Shown piece after piece: positions 6,375 through 54,954 of a DNA stretch of 64,000 nt. The DNA comes from Hydractinia symbiolongicarpus (taxonomy: Eukaryota > Cnidaria > Hydrozoa > Anthoathecata > Hydractiniidae). The translations under genes and the position numbers were made by a program. The notes under the pieces are model-generated. The model made no database searches. It had not been told where the DNA came from and saw only the letters and a list, made by a program, of their open reading frames with translations. Positions within the stretch are counted from its first letter, which is position 1. Each line of letters starts with the position of its first letter. Location: the NCBI RefSeq assembly GCF_029227915.1, contig NC_079875.1, positions 8,927,001 through 8,991,000 of the forward strand, written 5' to 3'.

Positions 6375-6378
6375 TTAA

Positions 6379-6998
6379 ACTTTTCTTTCAGATTCAGCCT
6401 TTCTAACTGCGCCCAACACACTCCAATTACCCACCTTTACCGTTGGCAAGCCTCCTGAAACCAACGAGTCCTTCGCATCCCTCAGGAACAAGTGTCCAGT
6501 GAGTTTAGATAACTTTAGTATGAACTCGATAACAGAAAGGGTGCACAGGATGCGTATAAACACAAATTGGTGGTGGAATGATGCAGATGAAGCCACTTTC
6601 TTACACAAGATGATACCTTTTGCTCAAGAGTACTGGCGCACGACATCGAGACATTCTACCTCCAATGTGCACAACCAACATCCAACCTTTGGAGCACTCA
6701 ACTAATGTCCAGCCTATGACGTGCAGAACCAACGCACAACCTCCAGCTGGTGAAGCCCCTACAAAATCCCCTACGCGTGCAGCAAATGTTCACCCTTCAA
6801 CAAATGTGGCCAACAACCAACCTCCTTTGCGTGCTGCCTCCTAACAAGGAACAATCTCATCAGCCGAGGAGATCGACTCGAATACATACAGTTAAGAAGT
6901 TTTATGAACCTGAAACCGCTAAATACGTTTCCCCAAATAAACGATAAACACTCTTCCGGACCGACGATGATTAACAGACAATTAATCTGAGAGGGAGA
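6379..6998 (+). pseudogene. 3' end of an LTR retrotransposon polyprotein (remnant)
   Basis: After a good splice-acceptor-like run (TTTTCTTTCAG at 6380-6390) there is an open stretch to about 6705, then a Pro/Thr/Asn-rich stretch. A second frame ends with RRSTRIHTVKKFYEPETAKY at about 6866-6947. The RRSTR tail followed by a purine tract and TGTAGA resembles the C-terminus of Ty3/copia-type polyproteins just before a 3' LTR. No RT or integrase of this element is visible here; the Kolobok lies immediately upstream. Identity of the 6391-6705 part is unknown. Confidence 0.4.
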
Positions 6999-8703: not shown

Positions 8704-9948
8704 CTATAAACCGAAATCAAATCCAATGTCCAATCTCAGGTTCATGTAGTGCTGGACGCCGTGTAGATCGACAAGGTAGGGAAGGAACCTCAAGGGTGCT
8801 GTCCTGATCTGTCGACGGGGGTGATGGTACCGTAACTGTTCCTGTGGCGGTAGGAGTGTCGATGGTGGAATCAGATGGTTGTTCGGGATCAACAGAGTAG
8901 TGCCATCCAAACATGCGTTGACGTCTGGGAGTTAGGGGGTGGGCAGGTCGAAATATGACACTGGGGACGGTCCACTTGTGAAGTTGCGATTGGTAATGGC
9001 AGGCGATGGTGGAAGGAAGCGTCGTAGGTACCGCCTTTTACGTCAAGTCACTCTTCCAGTGCCATCAACCTTAAGGGAGTAACTGTCATTACCATACCTC
9101 TACCATTGTTCTGGAGTGATCCTTTAGTTTAGGGTGATTTCCAGTATATAGCAATGCTTTTATGTAGATAGTGCACGAGAATGTTCATTTCGTCTTTCCG
9201 CAGAGTTGAGGAAACGTTCTCGCAGAGCTTCCTCCTCTTTGATCCAGGCATCCCTCCAATATTCTGGTTGATGAATTTTTCCAAACAGCTGGCAAAAGCA
9301 AACGCATCCCGGAGAGGTCTCCCAAAAACAAAGCTGGCGACAGATCACAATCACGGTCGGGAGTGTTCCGGAGCTGAATCATGGCACAGAGGAAATGTTC
9401 TGAATTCAGGCTACCCAATGGTCTGGTATTGGAGCGCAGGACTTCACAGCCACCTCTGCACGGCTATTCGATTGTGCATTATAAGCTGACGAAATCCTGC
9501 GGTCAACACGCCATTGTTTCAGGTAGGTTTCAGTCGCGTTGGACACAAACTCAAGGCCACCGTGGCTAGAGATCTTGGTTGGTATGCCAAAACGTGAGAA
9601 ATAGTTTCGCTGACAAGTAATGAGGCCCTCCGGTCCTGCTTGATGAGAGCTAGGAGGGGCTTTGAATACATCACACAATCCTGAAAATCTATCACCAACG
9701 ACCAGATAATGGGTCCCAACGCAATCGAAAAAATCAGCATGTATCATCTCGAACGGAGTTGACGGAGGTGTAGAGACAATGACTGGGAGTGGGGCTTGTG
9801 ATTGGGCATTCCTGACAAAATCTTTCCAGCTCTGTCTAGCACGTTTGATATTGTCGGTTATTCCAGGCCAGAAAACTATTGTTCGAGCACGAGCACCCAT
9901 CACTGAGACATCTTGGTGCGCCGCAAAACTTGCTACAAGGTCTTCCAA
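8704..9948 (-). pseudogene. Ty3 integrase and C-terminal tail, broken
   Basis: From 9948 downward: remains of the zinc domain and MGARARTIVFWPGI, then the rve core with MIHADFFDCVG (first catalytic Asp), YLVVGDRFSG, and SAYNAQSNSRAEVAVK (catalytic Glu). The second catalytic Asp is lost: the usual SSDGG reads SSHGG. After about 9410 the frame changes twice through the region ending PEYWRDAWIKEEEALRERF (about 9260-9205). The tail near 8790-8720 has a Pro/Ser/Thr-rich stretch and RSTRRPALHEPE, like the C-termini of this family. It cannot be active. Confidence 0.85.
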
Positions 9949-11372
9949 AACAACAGTCGCATTGCCATCTAACCCTGATTTTAGGAATAGCGGTCTAAAA
10001 AACTTGGGAAAAACATGTTATGCAAACTCCATCTTACAATGTTTTTATAACCTTCCAAAAGTTAAAGAAGCCATTTCTGTCAGCAAAACAACCTCAAAGT
10101 TAGGCGAAGCATTTGTATGTGTTCTTCAAAGTTTGGCTGTTTCTAGAAGTCCAGTTGATCCCTCCCATTTTTTGCGTGCTATGAAACATCATATCTCAGC
10201 TGCAAAGGGATGTGCATTTAATATCTTTGCTCAGCACGACGTCCCGAGGTTCTTGAATATCTCCTACCTGGTCTGTCATTAGACTTTCCATTTCTTGGAA
10301 GTCTTTTTAGTATTGGCATCAAGACATCAACCACTTGCAATTCATGTCATATTACCAGCTCCTCAGAAGTTATAGCACCATGCATCCAACTTTCTCTGTA
10401 CCCTACGTTACAATCTTCCTTAGATAATTTTTTCGAAAGCGAGGAGTTGTCAGACACCAATGCCTACTTCTGCCATGTTTGCAACGCTCATCAAACTGCT
10501 CTAGTTGAAAAAGAGGTAGTGTCATGCGGTTCCCATCTCATTTTACAGCTAAAACGTTTTGCCAGTGCCAACGGCCTTGTGTCAAAAATTGTCTCTCGCA
10601 TTACTGCTTACCCAGGTACCCTTTCCATACCTTTTACCGTAGATGGAGAAGTGAAATTTCGTAAAAATTTTCAATTAAGGGCTATTATCAACCATTGCGG
10701 CAACTTAAATAGTGGTCACTACACAACCATAGCCTTCGACCAAATGGTTCACAGGTGGATACATTGCAACGATAGAGCAGTAATTTTCTGTGATGACTGC
10801 CTTATTAACAGTCACGAGTCATATGTTTTCTTTTTAGAAGGGCTGAGGTAAGAATATTTTAATCAAAATGAGTCATCAAGGCGGCTTGACTACACTCAGT
10901 CTTGTCTTTGGAGAGTGACGACTCCACTTATTACCCCAGTTAGAAAAAATAATAGCAGGGGGGTATGATCACACATGATCTTATCTTTGGAGAGTAACGA
11001 CTCCACTTATTACTTGAGTTAAAAACAAAGAATAGCACAGTTGAACAGAAAGTTGTCAAAGTTTACTTTAGGAAGATAGGGATGTCTAGTTTCTGCTGAT
11101 GACCGTCCGCGGACCTCTTCGAGGTGACCCAGGTTCAGAGGTTCAGTAATATGGATCGAAACCTATCTGCCCTTGGTTAAAGTTCTGTTCATCTTTTTAA
11201 ATGTGTTGTGTCCTTTTTATTTTTTTATATATTTTTTAATTAATTTCTTGTAAAAAGGGAGAATTGTGCTTTTAGAGGCATTTTCTCTAGAGGAGTACAA
11301 CCTCTAGTCAAAGACCTAACAGGTTGAGTTCATCATTGCGGTGGCTTGCCACCTCTTTGTAAATTACTTTCT
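9949..11372 (+). mobile_element. USP-LINE copy 1, 5'-truncated, inserted in Ty3 pol
   Basis: The insertion separates Ty3 integrase (ends 9948) from the Ty3 RT C-terminal part (resumes about 11373 on minus). It contains the whole USP domain, then a 3' UTR with two ACCCC hairpin modules (10878-10940 and 10951-11020), the branched module from 11080 (its 3' arm deleted), and the terminal GGTGG-CTTG-CCACC hairpin near 11340. RT and endonuclease are missing by truncation. Confidence 0.8.
9964..10851 (+). pseudogene. Ubiquitin-specific protease (USP/UCH) domain of a LINE, one frameshift
   Basis: USPs are cysteine proteases that remove ubiquitin. The Cys box reads GLKNLGKTCYANSILQC (catalytic Cys codon 10016-10018). 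The QQD box follows as AQHDVPE, where a frameshift near 10247 moves the frame. The zinc fingers CNSCH and FCHVCNAH, and LILQLKRF, come next. The His box is NHCGNLNSGHYTT (His codon 10717-10719), followed by HCNDRAV supplying the third catalytic residue (about 10768-10773). The domain is about 290 residues, a normal compact USP. It has no promoter or start of its own; it is the C-terminus of a longer polyprotein seen in the copies at 12853 and 50480. Only one lesion separates it from an open frame. Confidence 0.85.
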
Positions 11373-12310
11373 TTTCTGTCGTGGAAGTTGGAGTTGGAAA
11401 ATGTTGGATTGCATCAAAGAATTTGGGTAACGGGTCTATGCGTTCTTCCGATATATGAAATCCAAGCTACGTGGAATGGAGACTCGGAGTGATGTGTCTC
11501 CCGTTTGCAGAATTTGTTTTAGCGGCGATAAGTCCACCGTAATTCGTGGGGATCCATTACCTTTCCTTGTGATCACCATCCTGTGGCACCATATCACCGG
11601 TTCGCCAACCGGGACTCGTTTGATCACCTTGAGATCTTCATCTCGTTTTGAATCAAACTGGACCTTGTCTCGCCAGTGAATTGGTTTGGGGGCTGCTTTG
11701 TGGCACGAGGATGGTTCTACTTCGTCTTTCAGATGGATCTCCACAGGTGGACCGGTCATGGTGGGTAAGTTTTGATGCGGGCATCTGTTTAAGGTGGAGC
11801 ACTTGTAACGTTCCAGAAGCCATGCTTCCATTCTATCATTGTTCCCAGGGGTGCATGGGAATGGAAGTTTGTCAGGTCGGGCAGGTACAAGTGTCCGCTT
11901 AGGGCAATCACAAATGCCTCCATCCTCTTTCGTGGCACCGCATATCATGCCAGCGTCATTCTTCCTGGTAATGTTGGCATCTCATAAGCAATGCCCGTCA
12001 TCCTTTAGTGGGTTTGAGAACATACCAACTTGTGGAAATTCTCTATTCACAATGCCGGACCCAGCATTGTATCATACGAAAGGTATAATGACTGTACATC
12101 CCGAATAACATAGATCATGGTATTGCAGGAGACTGACTGTCCCGTCGGAGAACTCCCAATGATTTTGGCAAAAAATGCACAGTCGATTTTGATAGGAGAT
12201 TTATTAGCTGCATTGAGCGAGAGGGAAACTGGTAAAAGGTCGTCCATCGTGAAGCCAGCTTGAAGGAATTTGCTAAGTGACCACAAGTCGGACTGGACTC
12301 CAGAGTCCGC
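11373..12310 (-). pseudogene. Ty3 protease and RT N-terminal region, RT core deleted
   Basis: On minus, about 12310-12050 holds the retropepsin region with ADSGVQSDLWSLSKFL (a DSG-type active site) and LLPVSLSLNAANKSPI. From 11948 comes the linker and RT start: KLPFPCTPGNNDRMEAWLLE, then MTGPP, EPVIWCHRMVITRK and RITVDLSPL. It then jumps to about 11480 with a frame change, into the sequence ERIDPLPKFFDAIQHFPTP, which normally lies well past the catalytic YxDD. RT fingers and palm are therefore deleted. The remainder stops at the LINE insertion. Confidence 0.8.
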
Positions 12311-12852: not shown

Positions 12853-14688
12853 ACATTTGTTGCCGACACTAGTCCAAACTTTGTTTTTCCAAGCTACATT
12901 GCTGTGTCACAACTAAGACTTGACATAGTAATCTTTTCAAATAAGCTTAAACGACTTGTAATTATCGAACTCACTTGCCCTTGCGAAGAAAATACAAACT
13001 ATTGGCACTCCACCAAAGTCGCTAAATATTCTTGCTTGGTTAACGTAATTCTATCCAGTGGTTGGCAAGTTGATTTCTTTGCTGTAGAAGTAGGGGCAAG
13101 AGGCTATTGCGCGAGAACAACCATGTCGTGTCTGAAAAGGCTGGGTTTTTCCAACAAAATGGCATATTCCACCTCAAAAAACCTTAGTAAAATCAGTATG
13201 ACAACTTTCTCTGTATGGATTGCTCGGGAGTCAAGAGACTCGTCTCAAGACTCCTTAATTAAGGCACCCGGAACGAGGAAGACTTTTCCAAGTAATCCAG
13301 CTCCAGTAAAAGAAATGCCCAAGGGTTGCTTTGCAGGTCCACGAACTGCGGCCTCTAAAAATCAACCGTAACAAAATTAGTGCCAAAACAAAGTCAAATT
13401 TTATAAATGCAGGCAATACGTGCTATGCCATTGTTTTTTTGAAAGCATTAAGTACTATTCCATCCCTATGGTCCCAGAGTGCTTGAGATCCCGCTTGTCA
13501 CCAAGTATGAAGGCGATTGCCATTAACATGACCATGCTAAACCGTTCTTTGACCCCCGTTGATTCTTCAAACTTTCTCAAGGCCCTGGAACGTAAGATAC
13601 ACTCTTCTGGAAATTCAACTTTCCAATACAATTCTCAGCAAGATGTAGCAGAGATGTTACTTCTTGTCTTTGATGAATTGAAAGGGTACTCAGTAATTTG
13701 CGTCTCAGAAGATGTCGACAGAAGTATCGGTGTCAGTTAGCTGTAACACCTGTCTCTGTTCTGTAGTTGTTGTTGAAAGTCAAGACATCCTAACACTGTC
13801 ACCGTCTTCCAGTGTCCAATTGTCAGTTAGTACATTTTTAGGTTCTGAAAATCTGGAGAATAAAAATGAATGGTTTTGCCCACAATGTTCCCGGCACCAA
13901 GAGAGCACTAGGGAAACAAGGATTACGAGGAATAGCGAAATTTTAATGAAATTTTGCAAGAGATGGAGAACATCTGGTTAAGGACAATAAATTTCTTGAA
14001 AGTTTTTCCTCTTATAATCCTTATCTCAATATCCCAATATCTAGTGACTCTGACACATCTTTTACTCAAAAGTATGATTTGATAGCTGCGATAAATCACT
14101 TTGGAACATTGAATGCAGGCCACTATTGGGCCCATATCAAAGATCGGACCACAAACTCTTGGTACCTCTGCAATGATAAGGCAATAAGCAAAGTTGATCC
14201 AACAGTTGATTCAACAGCACTACATCATGTTTTCTTTTATACCCGCTGCTAGTTTTTTTTTCCTCTTTTTAAAATAATCCAAGCGGTTTTGTATTACCCC
14301 AGCTGGTTCTTACAAGCCAGTTTACAGTATATGCCCAGAGTATAAAGTGTTCAGCTCACTCTTCTCTGGTAACTTATAAGAAGCTTAGCAAGAGGGTTTG
14401 CTTTTAGCTTGTCTTTGGGTGTAACGACCCCACTTTTTACCCCAGTTCAGTAAGGTGCCAAAGTTTACTAACTTCAAGCTTGACAACCCTGCTGTCCTTA
14501 GTCAAAATATCGACAGGCTGGTCCTGTTGACAACCTCCTGTGTAAGGCTGAGTGTTGGGGCCCTGTAACACATGTGGAAAGCTACAGCCAAAGTCACAAG
14601 TTCTGGCGCACAGAAGGGTCCGAATCCCAGTTTTGACAACCACCGTCCCTGTAGACGAAATACTTAAGTGCAGCTTGCTGTATTGTAA
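12853..14688 (+). mobile_element. USP-LINE copy 2, 5'-truncated, inserted in Ty3 gag
   Basis: Ty3 gag ends at its left edge (DIDIRREAL side) and resumes at its right edge (IRDALLNEKG side), so the insert is well bounded. It holds the restriction-like endonuclease, a linker, the USP domain and a 3' UTR with an ACCCC hairpin module near 14395-14446 (inner stem GGGT/ACCC). Confidence 0.8.
12860..14251 (+). pseudogene. LINE polyprotein fragment: restriction-like endonuclease then USP
   Basis: The first 90 residues read FVADTSPNFVFPSYIAVSQL and then RLDIVIFS ... VIIELTCPCEEN ... KVAKYSCLV. This is a PD-(D/E)xK-type pattern (Asp 12922, Glu 12967, Lys 13024) followed by GW and VEVGARGYC, as in the nuclease that follows the RT in R2-superclade LINEs. 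A polar linker of about 90 residues follows. Next is a USP Cys box AGNTCYA (Cys codon 13421-13423), QQDVAEMLLLVFDELKG, zinc-finger pairs CNTC and CPQC, and a His box INHFGTLNAGHYWA (His 14121-14123) with LCNDKA. The USP part shifts frame at least three times. It shows that RLE and USP sit on one transcript. Confidence 0.8.
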
Positions 14689-15261
14689 ACCTTTTTCATT
14701 AAGCAGCGCGTCACGAATTACTTCGTCAGTATAGTAAACGTTACCATGGATGTGATTATTGCAATTTGTACAAGTCGTGTCGAAAGATTTACCCTGTACT
14801 CCGGCTGAGAAGGTACAAAACGGCTCATCAGGGTCCTGTTTCGTAGCAAATAGTTCAGAACGAAGGACTCCAAGAGCAACATGAACTACAGCAACCGATT
14901 TAAGGATTGTCATAGCATCAGGCAAGGATTTCGTGGCAATCATTGGATCTGCACGAAGTATAATGTTCCCCAACTTTTCAGATGTGTATTCCGGAAGCTG
15001 CCCCGAGGCTGTAGCGTCTCTTATTCCGGATCCAACGCGAAATGTTTCCCAACGACGAATGAATGCATTCCAATCTTCATTGGTGGAGTGTAGCAGGAGC
15101 TTTGGACGTCCAATTTTCGGACCCCTCACAGGGGGACGGCCGTGTGCTGGGGCTGAGACATGCAAGTGTGAATGTACATTGAGAATAGTTGCAGCTCCTA
15201 CCACATCGACGTCCTGGGTTTCGAAATCACAGCCCGGGATTGGGCATGTCAGCATCGTCAT
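14689..15261 (-). pseudogene. Ty3 gag N-terminal part
   Basis: Starts at ATG 15261 with MTMLTCPIPGCDF, then the typical PKIGRPKL, NEDWNAFIRRWETFR and TKQDPDEPFCTFSAGVQGK segments and the paired cysteines CTNCNNHIHG. About 190 residues match this Ty3 gag; the frame then runs into the antisense of the LINE 3' UTR and is no longer gag. The rest of gag is at 12852 and below. Confidence 0.8.
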
Positions 15262-15719: not shown

Positions 15720-17169
15720 ATAGTGTGCCATCTCCCCAATTTTTCTCACATGGCTTGGGTTAACCCGGGGATATGGTAACATTCACTCGCCCATGTTGAA
15801 TCGCCGTCAGTATAGCTCTCCTGCACAGAGTACGAGAGATATAACCACTTTTGCTGTTTAGCTTATATAAATTAAATAGACTGTTATTAATACGAAACGG
15901 GAACATAGTGATAGCAACGTTAGTGAATAGCTACGTTCACCTGATTAGTTAAAACTTTATAAAGAGCTGTTATAACCATTTTAGAGCTAAGAGAAGAAGA
16001 TAGAGAGAAGTAGAAGATAAAAGAAGAAGCGCAAGAGTGTGAATGGATAAACGTTAGGAATCTATGGCATCAATATGGTGTTTTCGCGTTGGATTAAATG
16101 CTAATTAACAAATAATTAGTTCAATTTTGGTGTATAAATACAGGCGCGGCTCTAGCCAATTTTTTTACTATGTCAGAGCTTTGAATATAGAAAACAAAAA
16201 ACAATGAAAGGGGGTCTTAGCGTGTTATACGCCATTGCTTCAGAAGCTTCGCTACTAAAATGAGTTTTACGTACCCTAATCTGCCAAGTTGTTTTCCTCA
16301 ACAAGGTCGTGACACAAATAAAAATATCAAGCCGTATGGTTTAGTTTTATTTACGTCTTAGTAATACATTTTCCTCCTAAAAAATTTTCTTGAACATTTT
16401 AGTTTCTTCAGCATCTTTCTAGTTGCTGTACCTAAAAAGTATAAAATACATTTTTGAGTGCTGAAAATGTTTGCTGCATTTTCTATACAGAAATGCAAAA
16501 TCAGCGATCAAACAACCCTAACGGTTGATGGCATTGGTTATGGCACTGGTTTCCAAACCAATCAGCTTGATTTTTCGAGAATTTAAACCAATCAGGATAT
16601 TTTAAAATCATAAACTTTTTTAATTGACATGTGAGGCGAAGAAACTTTTTTAATAACTAAAGTCAATTTTATTTTAAAAATAAAATCACTAAAAAGCTTA
16701 TAGAAAAAGCTAACAAAAACGAACGATACCGTTCGGTATAGAAGAAATTGGAAAAACTCAACGAAATTTCCCTCTTCCCCGCCGTCATCAAAAATATCAT
16801 TAAGGGAAAAATTAAGAGTTTAGTTTACTAGACTTTTTTATAAGATAAACGCTAGAAATTATCTAAACACAAAATGTAGCAACCTGAAACCACATACAGC
16901 TAAATTCACCAGAAAATTTACTGAAAATAGCTCTTCTCAGGCCAATATTTTGCATGTTTTGATTTGCTAATATTATGAACAAAAGATTCTAGCCATAATA
17001 AGAAATAAGGAGAAACACATAGCTTAGCTATTATAGAAACAAACTAACCATAAAGTAAAGCTACTGTGCAGCGATCCTTGTTTGTTGTTACATGGGCAGG
17101 AAGATAGTTCTCTGCAGGTTAAATATCTTTGGATTAAACAAATATCAACTTGCTTTTGTAGTGCGTCAG
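15720..17169. other. No recognisable feature
   Basis: AT-rich sequence without a supported gene. A purine-rich run (AGAAGAAGATAGAGAG..) lies near 15990-16030. I see no repeat ends here. Confidence 0.4.
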
Positions 17170-17790
17170 GAAATGATAATATCATAAGAAGCATAGCAAG
17201 GGGGTTCGACTATATCTTTCTTTTGGTGCGACGACCCCACTTTTTACCCCAGTCCAGTAGGGAGGTCAAGTTTGCTCACTTGGTCTGCAGGGTTAATGAT
17301 CCTGCTGTACCCATAGTTATTCTTGTAAGAAGCTCTGCAAGGGGATGTGAAATTTCTCTTTCATGTCTTCGTGGTTTTACGCCCACGCATATCACCCCAG
17401 TAACTTCAGGCTGGTCCTGACCAAGGCTGGTCCTAAGCATCAATCACCTGTGTAAGGCTGCGTTTTGGGATCCCGTAACACGTGTAAAGCTACTGCCAGG
17501 TTCACAAGTCCTGGCGCATAGGTAGTTGTTTGCCTCCTTTTTATAGTTTTTATTTATTTGTGTATATATGCGTTTTATGTCAATATATGTTGTTGTTTTT
17601 GTTTTGTTGCAATATTTGTATTGTCCAGAGGGTTGCTTTTTTTCAGTTAACTTGGTTGTACAGACCATCCTTGTAAAAGGGAGATCTTGCTTTGCATAGA
17701 GATCTTTAGAGGGTTTAACCTCTACCACTTAAATTAAGAGTCATTTGACTAGTCGAATCACTACAGCTTGCTGTTTTGTTTTCTCATAAT
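17170..17790 (+). mobile_element. USP-LINE 3' UTR fragment (subfamily C)
   Basis: Collinear with 22590-23255 and with the 3' UTR of the copy at 50480-53575. Two ACCCC hairpin modules (17200-17250 and about 17338-17400, the latter with inner stem CGTGG/CCACG). The 3' part holds the AGATC/GATCT and AGAGG/CCTCT stems near 17682-17725 and ends near the block ACTACAGCTTGCTGTTTTG. Confidence 0.75.
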
Positions 17791-19140: not shown

Positions 19141-20449
19141 AACGAATAGCAGTAATATCGGCACCTCTTTCCATTGAAAACTTCGTCACCCTAGTGAGCT
19201 CTCGCGGTAGATGACAGACTGTGTTACCTTCTCTGTTGCATGTTCTGATTGCAAATACGTCAAAAGGATTGTTCAACGTTGGCTTTATAATAAAGGCAAC
19301 ATAAGCCATGCGAATTCTATTATCCAGATATTGTCACCTCCTCCCCCTTCAGACTTTGGTTACAATTGCCATCAGAATTGACCTCTTCCCCGCCGCATGT
19401 CAAGTCAATATCTTTAATCATGCCACACATAAATCAGTGTAACTCACCAATACACCCCTCAAAGTTTCTGCGAGCTTTTCAAAGTAGTAGGCGTGTACAT
19501 ATCCGGGAATATTTTACAGTCATTGATAAGCTTGTATATATAGGCTGATCACAACAACATTGTGCAAGTCCTGACATTTATATATATTTTAAAGAGCAGA
19601 AAGACCAATACCGCCTATGTACAACTCAATAACAACATGTCTCAGTACATTTTTACAACCACAGTAACTCCTGGCCAGCAATAAGTGGTTTTGTCTTTTA
19701 ATAACAGGTACCACTTAGTTGCAACCATCAACCAATCAGGTACTACTGGCCACTTGTTAGGGCACCTGCCTCTAGTGTGACGACTGCTTAAATAGCTGTT
19801 ATGCACCTGAAAAATTCGACTGAAATCATAATGGTCCGTGATTTTACTTGCAATTATCTTACCCCTTAATAAGTTTAATACCAAAAAAGAATCGTTTTTG
19901 AGGAACTTTGTGATCTTTGTGGTAATTTATTTATTTTCCTTTTGCTACTTACAAGGAAAGGATGTGTCGTTCCATTGGGAAATTTGTTGGAATTTATGCT
20001 TGTTTGTTCCATTTCAATTCTTTTATATATCATAATGGTAAATTATGCGAATTGATTATCGTAATGAATAGATGCTTTATGTGTGGAATACTCTGAAACC
20101 TAATTGACATTGTGCCATTGAAAGAGATTTCATTCTTGCTCTTACTTTAACTCTACTATAGAGAGCGTATTTTATTATAAAAAGGAATTGTTTTATGAGA
20201 AGTTTTGCAACTAATACTTTGTACTAGTCGTTACCCGTGGAAAAATCAACGGAGTCGTCCGTCTTTAAACTACATGCTGTTTGGTGTGCTAGTTGCACGA
20301 CACTTTTCTTATGCACAGACAGACAAAATATAGAGAAAAGAAGTAAAATATAAAAGTAGGTTTATCAAACTTAACCTTTATAATAATTATGATTCATTTC
20401 TATTAGGAAGAAATGAATGCCTTATTTGTTTACCTTATTTATTTTTCCT

Positions 20450-21065
20450 TTGTTAAACTGCTCTAGTTGAAAAGAAGGTGGTGTAGTGCGGTTCTCATCC
20501 CGTTTCATGCCTAAAACATTTTGCCTGTAGCAACGTACGTACCTCCCGTATTACTGCTTAACCTAGTACCATTTCCATACTTTTTTACTTTAATAGAAAA
20601 GTGAAATGTCGTAAACATTTTTAATTAAGTGCTATTATTAACCATCGGGGCAACCTAAATAATGACCACCACACAACCATTTTCTTTGACCAAAAGGTTT
20701 TCAGGTGGACATATTGCGACGATAGAGCAGGGTTTTTCTGTCATGACTGCCTTAACAGCTACGAGTCATACGTTTTCTTTTTAAAAGAGTTGATGTAAGA
20801 GTATTTAAACCGGAATGAGTAATGACTCCACTTATTATATCAATCAAAAATAAAAACGTAAGCACATACTGTTTTTTTGGAGAGTGACGATTCCACTTAT
20901 TACCTGAGTCAAACAAAAAGAATAGCAATGTTAGACAGAAAAGGTTTACTTTAAGAAGATTGGAAATTCTAGTCTCTGCTGATGACCGTGTGTGGATCTC
21001 TTCGAGATGACCAAGCTAGGCATCCAGGGTACTAAGGTTCAGAAATATGGGTCGAAACTTTCTAT
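20450..21065 (+). mobile_element. USP-LINE copy 4: decayed USP C-terminus plus 3' UTR
   Basis: Aligns with 10470-11150 of copy 1: CTGCTCTAGTTGAAAA... (C-terminal USP half), then the His-box region near 20640-20690 with many stops and frameshifts. The 3' UTR then shows the branched module near 20966-21023, in which the third hairpin is ATCTC-TTC-GAGAT. The match ends at GGGTCGAAACT. Confidence 0.75.
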
Positions 21066-22170: not shown

Positions 22171-22589
22171 AAAACTAAAGCCTATGCCGTCGACCATGAT
22201 TTGAGAGATTTGAAAGTTAACGTTTAATATTTAATATCATGTTCTCACGTATATGCAATGACTTCATTTGACGTCAGTCATTAGTGTCAAAACTGGCCAA
22301 CAAGAATTTGTTTTGGTGTCTGCATTTCGATATAAGTTCATTTCTCTGGTTCAAAAGGTTGTTTCCTTTAAACATTAAAATTGCGTACTTTTCGTGAAGG
22401 GAGAGGTTACATTTTTTGAAATTGGGCTTTTACGGGGAACATTTTTTGATTATTTCTTCTCCATACTTCTTTCGATAAAGCTCTATCATTCATGTATCGT
22501 TCCGTGTTGAATGACTTCTTTGGGTTAGCGTAACGTTTCTTAAATACCACTTCGCTATTGCCAGTCTACCGCCAACCTAGAGTTTGCTC

Positions 22590-23255
22590 ACTCTACACTC
22601 TCTTATAGAGTAATCATAAGAAGCTCAGTAAGTGGGTTTGACTATGTCTTTTCTTTGGGTGCGACGACCCAACTTTTTACCCCAGTCCAGTAGGGATGCT
22701 AATTTTCCTCACTTGGTCTACAGGGTTAACGATCCTGCTGTACCCATAGTTTTTCTTGTAAGAACCTCTGTGGGGTGTGTGAAATTTCTCTTTTATATCT
22801 TCGTTGCTTTACGCCCACGCATATTACCCCAGTAACTTCAGGCTGGTTCTGACCCTAAGCTGGTCCTAAACATCAATCACCTGTGTAAGGCTGAGTGTTG
22901 GATCCCGTAACACATGTAAAGCTACAGCTAGGTTCACAAGTCCTGGGGCGCATAGGTGGTTGCTTGCTTCCTTTTTATAGTTTCTATGTATTTGTATAAA
23001 TTTATGTTTAATGTTAATATATGTTTCTTTGTCGAGATGTCGTTCTTTTACGGTGTCTCTTTAGTATTATTGTGTGCACATTATTTGTATTGTCCAGAGT
23101 GTTGCTCTTTCAATTACCTTGAGTGTACAGACAAACCCTGCAAAAGGAAAATCTTGCTTTGCACAGAGATAGCGTTTAACTTCTACTACTTTAAATAATA
23201 TAGTCATTAGACTAGTCGAATCACTACAGCTTGTTGTTTTGTTGTCTCTTAACCA
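22590..23255 (+). mobile_element. USP-LINE 3' UTR fragment (subfamily C)
   Basis: Collinear with 17170-17790 and 52950-53575. The first hairpin module has inner stem GGGT (22657-22660) and ACCC (22667-22670) and closing ACCCC at 22679-22683. Ends near CACTACAGCTTGTTGTTTTG. Confidence 0.75.
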
Positions 23256-23733: not shown

Positions 23734-26700
23734 TTAGGTTACGTTTAGTATAATACGACCATTGATATATTGGAAAAAAGTTTCTTCTCGAAAGTTGGTT
23801 TTAAAACTGTCAAGGCTTCCTTGCTTCATTGCAATTATGCGCTGGGATAGGACGGCTGAAGAAAGGCACTTGTGAAAGTAAGCCTTGGTATCGACCGTCG
23901 CGTTATCGTATAGCGATTTGTTCCTGCCAAACCATATGGCTTGGTATGCGCAGGTCCGCAGTGTTTCCAATGGGTTGCGGACTTTGTCGCTTTGGTCGTG
24001 GAATCCTGTAATCACGTATTGTTGGGTTTTAGTAGGGTCTAATTTGGTGAAGAAGCGGGATAAAAAGAAGAAGTGAAACCATAGGTTTCTAGAGATTTGG
24101 CATGCTAGAAAAATGTGGAACGCAGTCTCTTCACTTTTGTTGCACCTGGTGCACATCGGACTATCCTGTGGGACATTCCGAGATTGTCATTGGTGCAACA
24201 TTTTTCGTGTGGTGACGCGTCGATGCAGAAACTTGTAGATAACATCTGAGGTTGGTTTGTGTATGTAATGGTTGTACATGAAGGTGAAGATTTTCTGCCA
24301 CGGTTGGTTTCCAATCTCTCTTTCCCACAGTCTGTGGCAGGGTTGTCCGGCGTTGAGCCGGTCTGAGATAAATTTTTCAGGAGAAGGTTTTTGTAGGAGG
24401 AGATAAAAGCATTTTGCGGATAGTGCTGTTATTTTTGACGTCGGATTCTTTTGTGTCGGTGTGAAAATTGTAAGTGTGTCCGCCGCCGACGTTGTGGCTT
24501 GTGTGCATATGGCATTGTGCCATTGCCGCGGCAGGCACTCTTTCAATTTTAAAAGACGTTCTTGTGTACAAAGTACGTTTGTTAATTCACTGACTTGCTC
24601 ATGAGAGAGGAAGCCAGGCGTAACTGTGTACGTAATGTCTTCGATGTTTGTGATGTTTTTGGTAACCCATTTAGGTGGGGTTACCATTTTCTGTGACCCT
24701 GTGTTGTTATCGACAGTTGTTATGAAAGGGTTCCAGAAGAAAGGTTCCTTCTGGATCTCTTCAACTGTGGTTGGTTGTGGTCTTTTGTTGTCGGTTAGCT
24801 CTATCCAGTCAGATATTAGGGCGCGATGGAAAGGTGGTAGGTTTATGGTGTTGTACGGTGACAAGAAAGTCTTGAATACATGCTTGCCAAGCGGATAGTC
24901 TCGGTATTTGTTGAGAACATATAGCATGAACGTTTTCCAAGAGCCCTTGACACGGTTGTTGTACAAGTCTCTGATCCAGGTTAATCTTGTGGCGCGGAAT
25001 TTGCGTTGAATATCGATGACGTTGAGGCCGCCGTGTTTTACTGGTAATGCGATGATGTTTTTATCAATGCGGGTCTTCTTCTGGTTCCAAAAGAATTCCC
25101 AAATGGCGTCTCGAATTTCTCGTAGTGTTCGTTTCGGACACGTGTATATGAAGGATGGGTAGCACAGTTTGGCCACGGCGAGTTGGTTAATGACAATTTT
25201 TCTTTCTTTTAATGAGAGATTCCGGTATTGCCATAACCGTAGAGTCTTTTTAAATGACTCGACCCTCCGCGGCCAAACTGTTTCGCAGTGGTTGGCGTTA
25301 CCAAAGTCCAACCCTAGTATGCGAAAGCTGTGGTTTGTCCATTTATATATCCCCGGTGAGTCAGTTCTGCTCCGGTTTCTCCCTAGCCACAGGTCCTCGC
25401 ATTTTTCAGGGTGAACCTTGGCACCAGAAGCTTGTTGATAGTTTTGGAGTATTTGTTGAAGTGGATGAAGAGACGAGGTACTGGTGAGAAAAAGTGTGGT
25501 GTCGTCTGCGTACTGTGAGACTTTGCATTGTTCATTCTGGTAGGTTATCGGCTTGATGTTTTGGTCATTTCGGATGGCCGCTGCCAGCACCTCCGCTACA
25601 ATTACGTAGAGAAGCGCGGAGAGCGGGCATCCTTGTCTGACGCCTCTAGTGGTTTTAAAGTTTCGAGACAGTTTGCCGTTGGCTTTGATGCAAGCAGTAG
25701 TGAAAGCGTTGTTGTTTTTACGAGTTTAATGAGATCGGGCCCGAAACCGAATTGCTTTAGTACTCGTTCTAGGAACGGTCGGTCTACCCTGTCAAACGCT
25801 TTCACTTGGTCGATGGTTAGGATGTACGCATCCAAGTCACGGTCGTTCGCGTACGTTATAACGTCGCGGATGAGAGACATGTTGTGGTAGATGTTTCGCC
25901 CTGGTACATCATATGTTTGATCGTGGTTGATGATAAGCGGGAGGACTTTCAAGAGGCGAGCCGCTATGGCTCTTGTGAATATCTTATAGTCAGCGTTTAA
26001 GAGGCTGACCGGGCGCCAATTGGAGAGTTGTTTTAGGTCTCCTTTTTTTGGGAGACAAGATATCACAGCTTCGCGTTGGGAAACGGTAAGGTTTCCCGTG
26101 CGAAAAGCCTCCTGGAAGACCTCCGTAAGGTCGTCCGCGATGTCATTCCAGAATTTTTTGTAGAATTCTGCCGGAAGGCCGTCTGATCCGGGGGACTTGC
26201 CATTGTTTAATTTTTGTAGTGCGCGGTAGAGTTCGTCGCGAGTTATGTTTCCTTCACAGAAGGTCTTCTGCACTGGTGTTAGTTTAGGCTTCAGTCCTGC
26301 TAAAAAGATGTCTTGTATTTTCAGGTCTGTGTCTTCCGCAGTGTAGTGTTGTTCGTAGAACAGCGACATCTCTTGCAAGATGTCGTCTGTATTGTCCGCA
26401 AAGGTTCCGTCGTCTCTCCGCAGAGTGTTGATGGTGGTGTTGTTTCTGCGGATTTGTTCTAGCCTTAGAAAGTATTTGGTACATCGCTCACCTTCTTCAA
26501 CCCACTGCGCCTTTGCCTTTACAACGTGGATTCCAGCGCGCTCCTCCTCTATTTTTCGTACCTCACTTGTGAGATACTCGATTAGATGAGGATCGGCCGG
26601 TTTCCTCGCTGCATTGGCGAGGCGCTTTTGTAGGGAATGAAGGCGGCGGTTCTCGCGTTTCCGTCTGTTCTTGGCGAATTTAATCGAGAGGCGTTTGATG

Positions 26701-33084: not shown

Positions 33085-35090
33085 GTGTGTAGTGGTTTGT
33101 GCGCTGGGCACGGGATGGTCAGGACATTTATTGTCCTCTTCATCCATTTGTTTTATGTGTTTTCTCGATTTCATTTATTTTGATGTTTTTTATGTTATTT
33201 GTTGGCTCGGTTTGGTGGAGGAAGTAGGATGAGTCGTGTAATGATGTACCTCGTTGGTAAAGAGTGAAGGGCAGTAAAGAGGGATAAGGTGGAGAAGAAG
33301 AAGTAGAAATGTAGAAATGCAGGGATGGAGGCGGTGGTTTGGCTTTGTATAATTGCTAGATTTTCCTCTTTGTTCCTTTTCAGAAATTCTTTGTTGCTAT
33401 TTTCAGTTTCTCATTTTATTATTTTATTTTATTTTATTTTTTATGAATTTATTCCGAAAATTTTATCTACGTACTATCGTTTATTAATTGAATGGGGGTT
33501 GGTATTCTGTCAAACGTGGGGTAATAGTTGACTTTGTTTATTAAGTAGTTTTTGATGCCTTTATTATGTTCTTCCACGTTTTGGAGCCATTTTCTTGCAA
33601 GTGCAATAATTCTATTTTTTATAGTAGGGACATTTGCAATTTGAAGCAGCAGGCTATTTGGTCTACTTCTGCTGAGGCCGTAAATGTAGCGAAGGTACTT
33701 TGTTTGTATTACTTCTAGTTTTTTTAGGTTTGTTTCATTTAAAGTTATCATGGCAGTAGCACCATACTCCATTTTGCTTCTAACGTAGCAGTTGAAAAGA
33801 TACTTCATTACGGGGACATTTGGACCGAAGGTGTTGTTTTTTAGTGTATACAGTATACTGGTTTTGTGTTTTATGGCTTTTATTGTATTGTTTATGTGTG
33901 CGTTGAAGTTGAAGTATTCGTCGAAGATGACGCCAAGAAATTTGGCTTCCGATCTTTTTTCTATATTTTCATTTTTTATTTTCAAACTCATACATGCATT
34001 CTGTCTTTTTTTTCTAAAGTTTATTTGGGTTGACTTGGTAGTATTTAAACTATCGTCTATTTTATCCAGTTGAGTCTGGAGTGTTTTTTTCATCTGGGAT
34101 GTGTTTTTATGGGAAAACCAGATTGCAATGTCATCCGCAAATTGTGTTTGGATCACTTGGCTTGTTGGGATAGGGAGGTCATTAACAAATAATATATATA
34201 GGATAGGGCTCAAAGGGCTTCCTTGGGGAACTCCAAAATTGGGATGGAATGCTATTCCTTCTACCCCATCAACTACTACCCTGATCTCTCTATTTGTTAG
34301 GAAACTTTTTATCCAAAACAGAGTTTTCTTGTTGATATTCATTTTTTGAAGTTTCCATATGAGTCCGCTATGCCACACTCTATCAAAGGCTTTCTCTACA
34401 TCCAAAAAGATGGCAGTGGAGGTTCTGTTTCTATTAAAACCTTGTGTTACATATTGACTAAGTCTGAATATGTGATCTTGAGTGGAATGACGTTTCCGGA
34501 ACCCACTCTGATTTTCGTTCAGCAAATTGTTTGTTTCTGCCCATTCTTGAATTTTTTTTGCCATAATTTTTTCTAATAATTTTCCTAAGTTACTTAGGAG
34601 GCTGATAGGTCTGTAGTTCTTTGCTAGCCTATGGTCTTTTCCCACCTTTGGAATCATTGTCACTAATGCGAATTTCCATATTTTTGGATGATAACCTTGG
34701 CTGAGACAGCCATTAAAAATAGGAAGGAGGATATCTGGGAGACTGTATTTGAGGGCTTTTATTAGTTTGTTTCTGATTTTATCTGGGCCACTTGCTTTTT
34801 TAGGGTCAATGTCATTTATGATGGTTACTATATCCTCGCGGGAAATGTTTTCTTCACAGTTTGGGTAGTCAGAGGGATCAGATTTATCGTTTTTCAGTTC
34901 ATCTTCGATAATTTTTTTTACGTCCGCTCTGTATGTAGGTGAATCGAGCTTCTCGTTGCAGAGGGTGTCTTTTAGGAGGGAAGTAAAGATCTTACATTTT
35001 TCATCGTTTGTTTGGTATTTTTTGTTCTCATGTTTTAAAGTTGGTGTTGTTTTCTTTTCATTTTTATTTGGATCTATCCTTGGTAACGTT
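33085..35090 (-). mobile_element. 5'-truncated Jockey/CR1-group LINE inside BEL integrase
   Basis: BEL integrase reads up to about 35097 (HGVETTLSYI) and resumes near 33084 (RYQEKALTS), so the insert is this interval. It starts mid-ORF2 and ends with a 3' UTR that includes a TAAAA-rich run seen at 33417-33440 on +. Confidence 0.75.
33467..35089 (-). pseudogene. Reverse transcriptase of the Jockey/CR1-group LINE
   Basis: From about 35089 the frame reads LPRIDPNK, then DPKKASGPDKIRNKLIKALK and KIWKFALVTMIPKVGKD, continuing in one frame of about 540 codons: NYRPISLLSNLGKLLEK, NENQSGFRKRHST, AIFLDVEKAFDRVWH (first Asp), GVPQGSPLSPILY, TQFADDIAIW (FADD active site), and a C-terminal thumb ending near 33467. 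The RT domain is uninterrupted from 34663 to 33467. It lacks the endonuclease because of 5' truncation, so it cannot move by itself. Confidence 0.85.
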
Positions 35091-50135: not shown

Positions 50136-50500
50136 CAGTCAAATCATTGGCTGACCACTCAAAGATACTAAAGACAAACAGGAAACGCTGTGTATTACAG
50201 CAATCGCGTCTTTGCAAAAGATTGTTTCCATACACTTGATACGCCAATCTATAAACAATATAAAGTAAATGCGCCATTGTGAAATACTTGAGCATGCTTA
50301 AGTAAAGGCCACAATGATTTTGGCGAATTAATTATGAGGAAGCGGCATGGGGTTACATTTTTACCACAGCCAGCGGTGACACATAAGATAAGATCAGTTT
50401 TGAAACTGAGATTATAAGTATAGTGTAATTTAGGTCCCTCGTCCTTGTGCTTTTGTTTACACTCAGCATTCCCTGCGAACAAGCTTCACGCTCTTGATAT

Positions 50501-51711
50501 TTGAAGCAGAATGGGGTTTTAAGCACAAGGCATTGGGGCAGAGAGAATAAAGCAAAAGGCTCAACGATAAAGAAGGCTTTTAGGAATAACCCCTATTCAG
50601 CTGGCAAAGCCTTACATAATCCTAATACCCACTTGTTTAATGTTTTTAAATCGTGTTTAAAACATTGTGTTGTACCTGTTCAATGGCGTTATGCCCGTGA
50701 AATTTATATTCCTAAATCAAAAACTCCTATGGAGTCCAAGATATCTGACTTATCGCACTTCTAAATGTCGAAGGTAAGCTTCTATTTAGCCTTGTATCAA
50801 GGCGGTTGGAAGCTCACATTATAGCCAACAACAAATTCATCAATACGTCTGTCCAAAAAGGTTGTATAGAGAAACTTCCTGGGTGTTGGAAACATATGTC
50901 AATGGTTTGGTCGGCACTAAAAGACGCTCGCTCAGCAAAGTCAGATTTGGCAACCATCTGGCTAGATATTGCAAGTGCGTATCCCACAATTCCTCACAGA
51001 CTTATCTTTTTCGCTCTTCAGCATTACGGTGTCCCGCAACATTGGATTACTTTTATTAAAAACTACTATATCGGCATATACAGCAAATCTTTTTCTGAAG
51101 ATGCCCCAAGCAATTGGCATAAACATATGCGAGGTATATTTTCTGGCTGTACACTATCTATCATTCTTCTCTTAGCTGACATAAACATCATCCTAGAATA
51201 TACGCTAGAAGCATCTGTACCAAGGTTTATCACATCAAGCAAAGTGTCACTTCCATTAATGAAAGCTTTCATGGACGATATAAACTTGATGTCATCGTCT
51301 GTTTGCGGTGCGCAAAAGGTATTAACCAGGTGTGCTGCCGCTTCAAAGTGGGCTGGTATGGAATTCCGTGCCCACAAATCACGCAGCATAGTAATCGTAA
51401 AAGGCAGGTCTTTATATTTTACACCCTTCTCAGTTCAGAAGCCTTTAAATCCAACAGATTTCTCTTCATTTATACCCTCTATCCATTCCATGCCAGTACG
51501 ATTTTTAGGTCGTATCATAGACGGTTCTATTTCCGATAGAAAAGCTATCGATGAGCTTGGAGAGAAACTATCAGTAGGGCTTTTTACGATTGACAAATCC
51601 TTTTACAAAGGTACTCAGAAACTCAATCTTCTGGTGAACATCATCAAACAAAACGGTTGGCATATAGATCTTTTTGCCATCGAAGTAGGTGCCAGAGGCT
51701 ACTGCTCTTGA
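50501..51711 (+). pseudogene. LINE reverse transcriptase (FMDD) joined to endonuclease C-terminus
   Basis: First part KAFRNNPYSAGKALHNPNTH and CLKHCVVPVQWRYAREIYIP; a frameshift near 50765; then VEGKLLFSLVSRRLEAHIIA, NTSVQKGC, PGCWKHMSMVW, LATIWLDIASAYPTIPHRL (first catalytic Asp), GIFSGCTLSIILL and LMKAFMDDINLMSS, where FMDD (Asp codons 51274-51279) stands for the common YADD. RFLGRIIDGSISDRKAI and the thumb follow. Near 51625 it jumps to NLLVNIIKQNGWHIDLFAIE and VGARGYC, matching the endonuclease end in copy 2; the intervening ~150 residues are deleted and a TGA follows. The same RT type is known from fish and cnidarian repeats; I assign it to the RLE-bearing (R2-superclade-like) LINEs, clade uncertain. 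Confidence 0.8.
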
Positions 51712-52833
51712 TCTGTTTCTTCGTGTTTGAAAAGACTGGGATTGGATCGCAAAAAAACTTTTCAAGCTGCTCGTCAACTTGGTGACATGTGCATGAAAGC
51801 TTCTTTCTGTATTTGGGTCGCTAGAAATACAAAGGTATGGAATGAACACAGCCACATCCCTATTTCAACCAACTATTCCATACCCACTCCTCTAATGCCA
51901 AAGGCCCAACAACCAACAGTCACCAACCAACAATACACCTGTTAAAGCAGGCCAAAACCCATCTACCCACAGCAAAGTAATTCACGCAGGATTAATAAAT
52001 AAAGGAAACACCTGTTACGCCAATTCCATCCTGCAAGCATTAACTGCAATCCCATCATTTTGGTTACATTGTGCTTCGGAATCTTCTCTTGTTTCCCCTC
52101 TATTGAAGTCTGTTATGCTGAGTATGTCCATGCTGTCCCAGTCTTCCACAGCTGTTGACCCTTCCACCTTCTTAAGAGCCTTGCAGCTTGAGATTTCCAG
52201 CTTTAGTAAGACCACATTCAACATTAATACCCAGCAAGACATGCCAGAAATACTGCTTCATGTCTTGGGTGAATTAACAGGCCCTTCGGTCATCGCAAAT
52301 AATATCATCACTAACATTATAACCACTACGACGGTATGTAATGCATGCTTCTTATCAACTAGCAGGGAGGAAAGTATGCCTATTGTGACACTCCCTATCT
52401 TAAACAGCGTTACAGGTTCAATTAAGTGTTTTTTGCAGCCCGAAAATTTGTCTGGAAATGGCAGGTGTGTCTGGAAATGCCCGCAGTGCTCTTCTTATCA
52501 AGACAGTACAAGCGAAACGGTTTTCTGAAGAGGTTTACGTTTCTTGATGGAAGAACACTAAAAAATAACAAATTTGTTACTTGCCTTGCTTCAAATGACG
52601 ACATTTTTAAAGTTCGCTCTCAGCCAACGGATGACATATCATTTAACAACAAATATTCGTTAGCAGCCACTGTTAATCATTCGGGCACCCTAGGAGCAGG
52701 TCACTATTGGGCATTCATTAAAGATCGCAGCCGTGGCTCATGGTTAAGGTGTGACGATAAAGCAGTTGTTAGAGTTGCACCATCCGATTTAAATAACTCT
52801 TCTGTGTATGTGTTGTTTTATGTGAAAATGTAA
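51712..52833 (+). pseudogene. Linker and ubiquitin-specific protease domain of USP-LINE copy 3
   Basis: After SCLKRLGLD (also in copy 2) a Pro/Gln/Thr-rich linker leads, with a frameshift, to the Cys box AGLINKGNTCYANSILQA (Cys codon 52013-52015). Then come NTQQDMPEILLHVLGEL, the finger pairs CNAC and CPQC, a stop at about 52526 with loss of the LI.QLKRF segment, and KNNKFVTCLASND. The His box is ATVNHSGTLGAGHYWAFIKD (His codon 52702-52704) followed by LRCDDKAVV. Cys, His and Asp of the triad and both zinc-finger pairs survive. Closest in sequence to copy 2 (AGHYW), with copy 1 more diverged (SGHYT). Confidence 0.85.
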
Positions 52834-53575
52834 TAATTGTCTGATTAGCATTCACATAAAAGGAGGAGAGTTATCTTTCCCTAGCGGTTTTATATTACCC
52901 GGCTGTTTCTGTCACAAGCAGTCTAACGTGATCCTAGAGTTTGCTCACTCTTCACTCTCTTTTAGAGTAATCATAAGAAGCATAGCAAAGGGGTTCGACT
53001 ATGTCTTGTCTTTGGGTGCGACGACCCAACTTTTTACCCCAGTCCAGTAGGGAGGCCAAGTTTGGTCACTTGGTCTACAGGGTTAGCGATCCTGCTGTAC
53101 CCATAGTTAATCTTGTAAGAAGCTCTGCAAGGGGGTGTGAAATCTCTTTTATGTCTTCGTGGTTGTACTCCCACGCATATCACCCCAGTAACTTCAGGCT
53201 GGTCCTAAGCATCAATCACCTGTGTAAGGCTGAGTGTTGGGATCCCGTAACACGTGTAAAGCTGCAGCCAGGTTCACAAGTCCTGGCGCATAGGTAGTTG
53301 CTTGCCCCCTTTTTATAGTTTTTATTTATTTGTATATATATATATACGTTTTATGTCAATATATGTTGTTGTTTTTTGTTTTGTTGTTGCAATATTTGTA
53401 TTGTCCAGAGGGTTGCTTTTTTAATTAACTTGGTTGTACAGACCATCCTTGTAAAAGGGAGGTCTTGCTTTGCATAGAGATCTTTAGAGGGTTTAACCTC
53501 TACCACTAAAAATAAGAGTCATTAGACTAGTCGAATCACTACAGCTTGCTGTTTTGTTATCTCATAATCATTTTT
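52834..53575 (+). other. Structured 3' UTR of USP-LINE copy 3
   Basis: Two hairpin modules. Module 1: GGGG (52990-52993) with ACCCC (53036-53040), inner stem GGGT (53014-53017) with ACCC (53024-53027). Module 2: GGGGGTG (53131-53137) with CACCCC (53181-53186), inner stem CGTGG (53158-53162) with CCACG (53171-53175). Between them are CAAG/CTTG and ACAGG/CCTGT hairpins. Further on are stems in AGGTCTT..AGATCTT and AGAGG/CCTCT. The same layout with other stem sequences occurs in the other copies. Confidence 0.65.
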
Positions 53576-54954
53576 CTATCTAAACACTTCTTCGATGATG
53601 GTAAAGCGTATTTGACAATCCTGATGTTATCAAATGACAAAATGTTGCAAACATTAGTAAAACGTTTTATGTAAAAAATTGGTTGTGGAGATATGCAACG
53701 TTATACAAATGTGGTGAACTTTACATAAAAAAGACTTTAATGAAAAAACAAATGTAACAAGCAACTTGACAGCCATACATGCTAGTACCAAGACACATCA
53801 GAAATATAGTCAAATTCAACAAAATTAAACTACATAACTAGATCCACTTTTACTAACTTGCTTTCTGTTATTGAGTCATTAATTCCTTTTAATTGTTATT
53901 TGAACGAAATCCACTTGGCTGGTCGGTTATTGCATATTGCATATTGCATTGAACATTGGCATTGATCGTAAATTCTGAATTGTTGAATTGTTTAGCCTAT
54001 GGCAATTATGAAATACGATTTAACCTAATGTGTTCTGTTTGAAAACGGCGAGATTCTTGTTTTGTGTTAATCACATGAGTAAGAACCAAAGATGACGACT
54101 TTGAAGCCTTGCTTCTAGCAGACATTGCTTCACAGGATTAACGAACTATTATACCATTGTCCGGTAATACATTAGATTTGCATTTTGCGCATGCAGATTT
54201 TATTTCAATCGTTGATAAGTCTAAGGTTCTTTTCCTACGAGCTTGACGTAAACATCTTTGAATGTTGTCATTTAAGACTTGGCTAATTGTATTGAATAGC
54301 ATGGGGCGTGTCATCTTATCAAAGTTCAAGTTGACTTTCTTTACTGAAGTGTACTCATTAAGAATTACGTCGTTGATGTGACTCCTTTTAAAGTTATTAG
54401 TTCACATCCCCACTTTTCGTCACTTTTATTTTTTGAGTTTTCTCTACAAATTTTCGGAGGTGACATACTAGTCACAAATCCCTTAAGCAAATATGAAATC
54501 AAATTTTGTGTTTCAATTCTAATTGCAGTGTTTAGTTCAAATAAAAAGCTTACCATTTTCTTCTTCGTTTGGGGTATGGTGCTGCTAAAAAAACAAGATT
54601 TTAACATAATTTTTTTAACTTTTGGTGATTTGATCAATATGTTGGGTCTATTTGTTTTCAATTTATCGCATAAATATTTAAAAAAATCATAAAACTGTGG
54701 AGCATTCCATCAGCAACTCCCCACCTAATTAATGCTGTATTAATATATTTTACCATTGATCTTGACATTGTTTGTATTAGTTTTTGCTATGAAAGTCGAT
54801 AGACAATGCAAATACAGAATATTCACTCTCACTGGATCATCTGTTTGCAAAAACCTTTAGTGTCTCCTGTATACAAATCCTTGTCACTCTCCTTTGCTCT
54901 CGAAACAATTTCTCTTACAGCAAATTGTTTCTATACTTATATACTTATTCTTCT
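53576..54954. other. No recognisable feature
   Basis: AT-rich; only short open frames without domain resemblance on either strand. GCATATT is repeated three times near 53935-53950. Confidence 0.4.

Follow-up and report, generated by a model that had tools for sequence, protein, structure and literature searches.

The question raised by a 64,000-nucleotide stretch of the Hydractinia symbiolongicarpus genome (contig NC_079875.1, forward strand, positions 8927001-8991000; hereafter, the window) is whether the broken repeats in it belong to a long interspersed element (LINE) that encodes a ubiquitin-specific protease (USP) in one protein with a reverse transcriptase (RT) and a restriction-like endonuclease (RLE), and what such a protease may do for the element. 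Based on the results described below, we suggest that this is a LINE of the R2 group with a single open reading frame for RT, a CCHC zinc knuckle, RLE and USP. The USP is predicted to be active and probably deubiquitinates the element's own protein-RNA particle.

We translated the window, scanned it with Pfam and analysed three copies (copies 1, 2 and 3, Table 1). The USP domain (UCH, PF00443) was present in all of them and was split by a frameshift in each; the middle piece of copy 2 (13697-13978) gave no UCH match. The RT domain (RVT_1) was confined to copy 3, where it shares 62-69% identity with two intact genomic relatives (L010 and L016) and a database protein (P0006) by tblastn. The RLE was not named by Pfam anywhere in the window. 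It was recognised in copy 2 through alignment to intact relatives, and this copy, starting inside the RLE, consists of RLE and USP. In copy 3, the match to the intact protein extends through the RT to residue ~640 and resumes at residue 1009 (tblastn); the knuckle is missing, and of the RLE the tail is kept but not the core. Copy 1 contains the USP and the 3' end and no other domain. The earlier note on this DNA had read one polyprotein from the three overlapping copies. Its domain content holds, with UCH in all copies, RT in copy 3 and RLE in copy 2, but none of the copies is complete and all are frameshifted. The polyprotein is thus a reconstruction, which requires intact copies as its test.

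The genome searched comprised 480.9 Mb in 76 contigs, and UCH was detected at at least 150 places, host USP genes among them (149 of 1015 candidates were scored). Fifteen loci (L009-L023) were examined for frames, and four more (L024-L027) were added. An unbroken frame of 1426 codons, with the first Met at codon 6, was found at six of the 15 loci (L009-L014); in the intact loci the order is RT, CCHC knuckle, RLE, linker and USP. The predicted single frame with RVT_1, RLE and UCH in this order is therefore present in this genome at six loci that are nearly identical. Other long frames were found at L018 (1423 codons), L016 (1422), L017 (1379) and L015 (1345). Loci L019 and L020 are 5'-truncated (1017 and 967 codons), the frame is split in two in L021-L023, and L024-L027 are truncated or broken. 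A host-like USP from the same genome (L001) has an 886-codon frame, in which the UCH parts are separated by long inserts; it showed no RT or RLE match, although no search aimed at one was made.

In the protein of L010, Pfam recognised RVT_1 at residues 334-604 (expect value, E, 8e-16), zf-RVT at 823-887 (below the cut-off) and UCH at 1132-1418 (E 5e-32). Both UCH and RVT_1 were found in 29 of the 29 members of a family alignment (A2). The residues invariant in A2 include the FxDD motif of the RT (F523, D525, D526), the knuckle C867, C870, H879 and C884 (CX2CX8HX4C), R896, H897, P974, D975, E990, K1006 and Y1010 of the RLE, and C1141, H1379, D1397, C1249, C1252, C1294 and C1297 of the USP. In RLE LINEs, a knuckle with the spacing CX2-3CX7-8HX4C lies between the RT and the endonuclease, and the endonuclease carries the motifs RH and KxxKY (PMC5678591; this and the other papers are cited from the available part of their text). 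Among the 64 database proteins complete for both RT-RLE and USP, the pattern PD-x14-ExT, followed by KxxxY, was present in all and the knuckle pattern in 58, with six proteins lacking it. The nearest LINE relatives of the RT in the PDB are R2 proteins (E 4e-23 for the single sequence and 2e-34 for the profile), the closest solved ones being 9nl2, 9nl3 and 9dou by PDB sequence search. The element thus shows a single-frame RT of the type without long terminal repeats, a knuckle, the RLE core motifs and a common 3' end with a variable 5' end, and, judged by the features tested, it is an RLE LINE of a known kind.

At E 0.01, a Ulp1 match was found in none of the 29 members of A2, and no further nucleic-acid or chromatin domain was found in them by Pfam besides one C2H2 and one Rep_fac-A_C. 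It should be noted that some USP-bearing proteins (P0143 with 1951 aa, P0147 and P0070) also contain C2H2 zinc fingers, as R2-type elements do, and that about 750 residues before the RT of P0070 have no Pfam match.

The RT-RLE-USP fusion is not local to the window. A protein search seeded by the USP of copy 3 returned 33 proteins, seven of which contained both UCH and RVT_1. When the RT-RLE part alone was used, PF00443 was found in 84 of the best 120 of at least 358 proteins (the candidates being capped at 7986), and 74 of these 84 also contained PF00078; the remaining 36 had no PF00443, some of them being cut-short proteins. A third search, seeded by the distant member P0117, yielded 53 proteins, 20 of which had both domains. 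Of the 163 proteins pooled, 114 match both the RT-RLE and the USP profiles, 47 match RT-RLE alone and two match USP alone, and the USP follows the RLE in all 64 complete proteins. These relatives, together with the tree and the conserved domains described below, bear out that the USP belongs to a repeat family and is not one host gene at adjacent loci.

Among the pooled proteins, the sole animal-named one with this USP was P0004 of H. symbiolongicarpus (558 aa, "ubiquitin carboxyl-terminal hydrolase 51-like"), which matches the RLE end and then the USP of the LINE family. UCH is missing from the relatives that are named for Clarias, Engraulis, Brachyhypopomus, Branchiostoma, Mizuhopecten, Mytilus and Anthophora, and likewise from three of Hydractinia itself (P0075, P0081 and P0098). 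Two RT-RLE-USP proteins (P0043 and P0096) are named as belonging to a metagenome-assembled genome of Pseudomonadales and are very likely eukaryote contamination of that assembly.

A tree of the RT-RLE part was built from 107 rows by a quick search, with the Shimodaira-Hasegawa-like approximate likelihood ratio test (SH-aLRT) as the only support measure. It was rooted on an R2-like Anthophora protein (P0163), whose branch is very long, so that the root is unsure. All 71 rows with a USP fall into one clade of 94 rows (SH-aLRT 100), and none lies outside it. The deepest branches of the clade carry the USP, nested groups do not, and the outgroups are USP-less; here, "without USP" means a tail of fewer than 40 residues after the RLE, and P0094 and P0075 may be cut short. 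Presence of the USP requires 8 changes on the tree with all rows, as compared to a mean of 30.2 after shuffling, and 6 are sufficient when five rows marked as truncated (including the USP-less outgroups P0156 and P0158) are excluded. On the first tree, 8 changes were counted against 21.9 after shuffling. The USP and RT-RLE distances of 61 elements are correlated (Mantel r=0.875), and none of 2000 permutations gave so high a value. By these sequence comparisons, the USP and the RT-RLE part are shown to have been inherited together. The simplest reading of the tree would be one old gain of the USP followed by later losses, but several separate gains may also account for it.

Conservation of the USP was assessed in 97 complete domains from 94 proteins and three loci, two of the loci being near-duplicates. 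The catalytic Cys, the catalytic Asp and the oxyanion Asn were present in all 97, and the catalytic His in 96, P0002 having Tyr instead. The four zinc-binding Cys residues were found in 95, 97, 97 and 97 domains, with P0122 and P0124 each lacking one. The mean pairwise difference of the USP among the 61 paired elements was 71%. The AlphaFold model of the L010 USP had a predicted local distance difference test value (pLDDT) of 93.6 and a predicted template modelling score (pTM) of 0.91, and its best Foldseek match in the PDB was the USP2-ubiquitin complex 2hd5 (E 1.8e-27, TM scores of 0.82 and 0.77). A profile search against the PDB gave USP8 (1e-47), USP2 (3e-46) and R2 (2e-34), a sequence search with the USP part gave USP36, USP15, USP2 and USP8, and the closest solved USPs also include USP21 and yeast UBP8. 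A USP fold is predicted from the model, and the residues and the model together predict catalytic competence as a deubiquitinase.

The copies of the L010 family are 99.0-100% identical in DNA over the aligned blocks. All of them end in ...GTAAACCTTTTTCA on the 3' side, with no poly-A run, whereas their 5' start points and their 3' flanks differ. Copies with one 3' end and with 5' ends truncated to differing degrees are what target-primed reverse transcription leaves, and the L010 family is a young family of the R2-group type. Up to 15 bases from the junctions of seven loci, no convincing target-site duplications were seen, the longest words being 6 bases. A second family (L016, L017 and L023) has a protein identity of 55-57% to L010. 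The proposal that the USP LINE moves as a unit was originally drawn from two window copies lying inside Ty3 coding sequence. Only part of that observation could be recovered: a reverse-strand frame beside copy 1 (9409-10017) has an rve integrase match below the cut-off (Pfam, E 0.0019), but the other five of the six flanking reverse-strand frames scanned gave no Pfam match at E 0.1. Mobility itself is better shown by the near-identical copies in unrelated flanks.

At L010 (1144-1898 and 6511-7600), as well as at L009, L011-L014, L018, L021 and L022, a partial 3' untranslated region (UTR) of another unit precedes the young copy, and the 3' UTR/5' UTR junction of such copies falls within one continuous alignment. 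Head-to-tail units of about 5.37 kb were also observed on contigs C11, C2 and C4. These arrangements would be accounted for if the RT jumped end to end between templates, or if transcription started in an upstream unit. Copy 2 (12856-14702) shares about 66% identity with L010 in coding DNA and 88-91% in the 3' UTR, for which either a 3'-end exchange between families or a strong constraint on the 3' UTR may account. A block of the 3' UTR has a mean column identity of 69% in six copies (alignment A3, with L010 6596-6950 and window positions 14276-14620, 52860-53308, 17120-17540 and 22550-22974 among its members) and is perhaps a recognition element for the RT. The fold predicted from six sequences was branched, with 64 pairs, eight of them changed on both sides, and its covariation term was unfavourable (+1.13), for which reason an RNA structure is not claimed. 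Neither L010 nor L016 matched Rfam at the gathering cut-offs.

Taken together with the tie between USP and RT, from which the nearest substrate would be ubiquitin on the LINE protein, we suggest the following course of events as the probable one. Host ligases would ubiquitylate the LINE protein. Being fused to the RT, the USP would be present wherever the LINE particle goes, be it the cytoplasm or the target site, and it would strip ubiquitin from the LINE ribonucleoprotein in cis. Consequently, the particle would escape proteasomal degradation ahead of insertion or while insertion is under way. Ubiquitylation of mouse L1 ORF1p by TEX19.1 and UBR2 has been described as a restriction of LINEs (PMC5570191). 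More tentatively, and with somewhat less than even confidence, the USP can be regarded as a built-in counter-defence in an old, recently active clade, in which the nested losses would record an arms race with ubiquitin-based restriction.

Several observations weigh against this explanation. The fusion is the sole ground for preferring the element's own particle to chromatin or immune substrates. Nested lineages without the USP exist, for instance a group of 14 rows (13 without it and one marked as truncated), and such lineages keep frames of 1137-1269 aa, which means that the USP is not essential everywhere. Since synonymous sites are saturated between families and leave no usable ratio of nonsynonymous to synonymous rates (dN/dS), the nonsynonymous difference (pN) was compared per domain. 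In three comparable pairs it was 0.36-0.37 for the USP, 0.19-0.23 for the RT and 0.54-0.55 for the linker; the USP thus changes more rapidly than the RT. Finally, between near-identical copies the USP ratio was 1.6 (35 pairwise differences) and 1.1 (25 pairwise differences), which speaks against strong constraint at present and is what drift after insertion would give.

The strongest competitor, though in our opinion an unlikely one, is that the USP targets chromatin or repair proteins at the insertion site, such as histones or PCNA in ubiquitylated form, and thereby opens the site or damps the damage response. The USP does travel with an endonuclease domain, Ginger transposons carry OTU and Ulp1 domains for which an action on DNA repair has been proposed (PMC2836005), and USP2, USP8, USP36, USP21 and yeast UBP8 are among its closest solved relatives. 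However, no host USP stands out among the 50 matches listed (19-26% identity), and the substrate can therefore not be read from kinship; apart from the one C2H2 and the one Rep_fac-A_C mentioned above, Pfam shows no further nucleic-acid or chromatin domain in the 29 A2 members at E 0.01. We consider it still less probable that the USP acts mainly in trans, blunting ubiquitin- or ISG15-type immune signalling of the host as viral deubiquitinases can. Viral USP-fold proteins match the model (BFVD) and USP18-ISG15 structures occur among the PDB matches, but an RNA-bound LINE protein seems to be poorly placed for such action.

A captured host USP domain carried as a passenger, without benefit, is very improbable. 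The USP-less nested lineages, the faster evolution of the USP relative to both RT and RLE, and the near-identical copies, which show no sign of constraint on their few changes, would fit it. Nevertheless, the catalytic residues are retained in 96-97 of the 97 domains in spite of the 71% mean difference, and this invariance of the active site speaks against a passenger; the adjacent linker is also less conserved than the USP (pN between families of 0.50-0.67 and 0.30-0.50, respectively, with 0.21-0.37 for the knuckle-RLE part). The passenger domain was rejected on the retained active site. That a host USP gene overlaps LINE fragments by chance, as the broken window copies with their overlaps in different frames might suggest, is ruled out for practical purposes by the single 1426-codon frames at six loci and by the 64 complete fusions among database proteins.

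Dualen/RandI LINEs carry a cysteine protease of an OTU-like type. Dualen has both an apurinic/apyrimidinic endonuclease and an RLE (PMC3636483), unlike the USP LINE. Like the USP LINE, the NeSL/Utopia elements are RLE LINEs with an accessory cysteine protease of the ubiquitin/SUMO system, but theirs is N-terminal, of the Ulp1 type and reported in nematode families (PMC4640811), whereas that of the USP LINE is C-terminal and of the USP (C19) type. With the R2-group LINEs (CRE, R2, R4, NeSL and HERO), the USP LINE shares a single frame, an R2-nearest RT, the knuckle spacing and the RLE motifs RH, PD, E and KxxKY; a C-terminal USP, which it has in addition, is not mentioned for them in the available text of PMC3636483, PMC4640811 and PMC5678591. 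Dispersed insertion has been described for HERO (PMC3636483, PMC4640811), and the USP LINE likewise lies in different flanks. Membership in the HERO clade, hinted at by this and by the fish and amphioxus outgroups, is a guess. The R2-like BLAG LINEs of the cockroach resemble the USP LINE in being dispersed and having an extra conserved domain; the identity of this domain is not named in the available text of PMC7650587, and the main text of that paper does not contain the word "ubiquitin". Outside LINEs, Ginger1 and Helentron DNA transposons carry OTU or Ulp1 domains, which are also ubiquitin-system proteases, and a Peptidase C19 domain, which has the same fold, occurs in a transposase_11 protein of Trichomonas, a single DNA-transposon protein named in passing (PMC2836005, PMC4067079). 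No USP-bearing LINE was found described in open-access paper text, the scope of the search being such text and not Repbase or Dfam, which agrees with the earlier note in this respect. In the available main text of the Hydractinia genome paper (PMC11067881), no such element is named and "ubiquitin" does not occur. Accessory proteases in LINEs were thus already known, and within the open-access text it is a true ubiquitin-specific protease in a LINE that was not found described.

In addition to the three copies, the window contains further fragments of the family (Table 1). A DDE_Tnp_4 transposase match (E 3e-7) at 953-1585 on the minus strand adjoins one of them. Other RT-like stretches at 25354-26327 and 33941-34846, both on the minus strand, sit in long open frames of that strand and share 21-26% identity with the USP LINE family.

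Table 1. Parts of the USP LINE family located in the window (positions are those of the window; residues are those of the intact protein).
Feature	Position	Strand	Basis
Copy 3, pre-RT/RT 5' piece, frameshift to RT frame	50498-50755	+	tblastn of intact relatives from 50591
Copy 3, reverse transcriptase	50749-51708	+	RVT_1 E 1.1e-13 (Pfam)
Copy 3, RLE C-terminal end and linker start; residues ~640-1008 deleted	51619-51942	+	tblastn
Copy 3, first half of USP: catalytic Cys box, both zinc CxxC pairs	51896-52525	+	UCH E 1e-12 (Pfam, first frame)
Copy 3, second half of USP: His and Asp boxes, other frame	52525-52830	+	UCH E 5.7e-18 (Pfam, second frame, 52426-52830)
Copy 3, 3' UTR	52831-53578	+	blastn to L016 and L010; alignment A3; right edge by eye
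Copy 3, conserved block of 3' UTR	~52975-53305	+	blastn; alignment A3
Copy 2, 5'-truncated start in RLE (PD, E, KxxKY), then linker	12856-13368	+	tblastn from L010 residue 954
Copy 2, USP, frameshifted	13394-14252	+	Pfam (UCH at 13381-14249, E 0.018, below family cut-off, and 4e-14); tblastn
Copy 2, 3' UTR with internal deletion; end same as L010 family	14253-14702	+	blastn 90.6% and 88% to L010
Copy 1, USP alone; frameshift near 10250; left edge approximate	9949-10851	+	UCH E 3.7e-11 and 8.8e-15 (Pfam, 9710-10848)
Copy 1, 3' UTR; right edge approximate	10852-11430	+	sequence; short blastn match 10896-10941
Further fragment, residues ~759-971 (knuckle region to RLE PD)	1091-1724	-	tblastn
Further fragment, residues ~643-755 (between RT and knuckle)	6378-6697	-	tblastn
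Further copy, conserved block of 3' UTR	17185-17536	+	blastn 78.6% to L016
Further copy, USP fragments 19262-19509 and 20625-20792	19262-20792	+	tblastn
Further copy, conserved block of 3' UTR	22562-22970	+	blastn 75% to L016

For the annotation of Hydractinia, these results call for caution, as a part of the LINE has been annotated as a host USP in at least one gene model (P0004). The natural element also offers a direct test of the effect of ubiquitin on LINE particles, in which one mutation of the catalytic Cys is sufficient. If the USP works as predicted, LINEs would have been restricted by ubiquitylation for long enough, and strongly enough, for a deubiquitinase to be selected within the element's protein.

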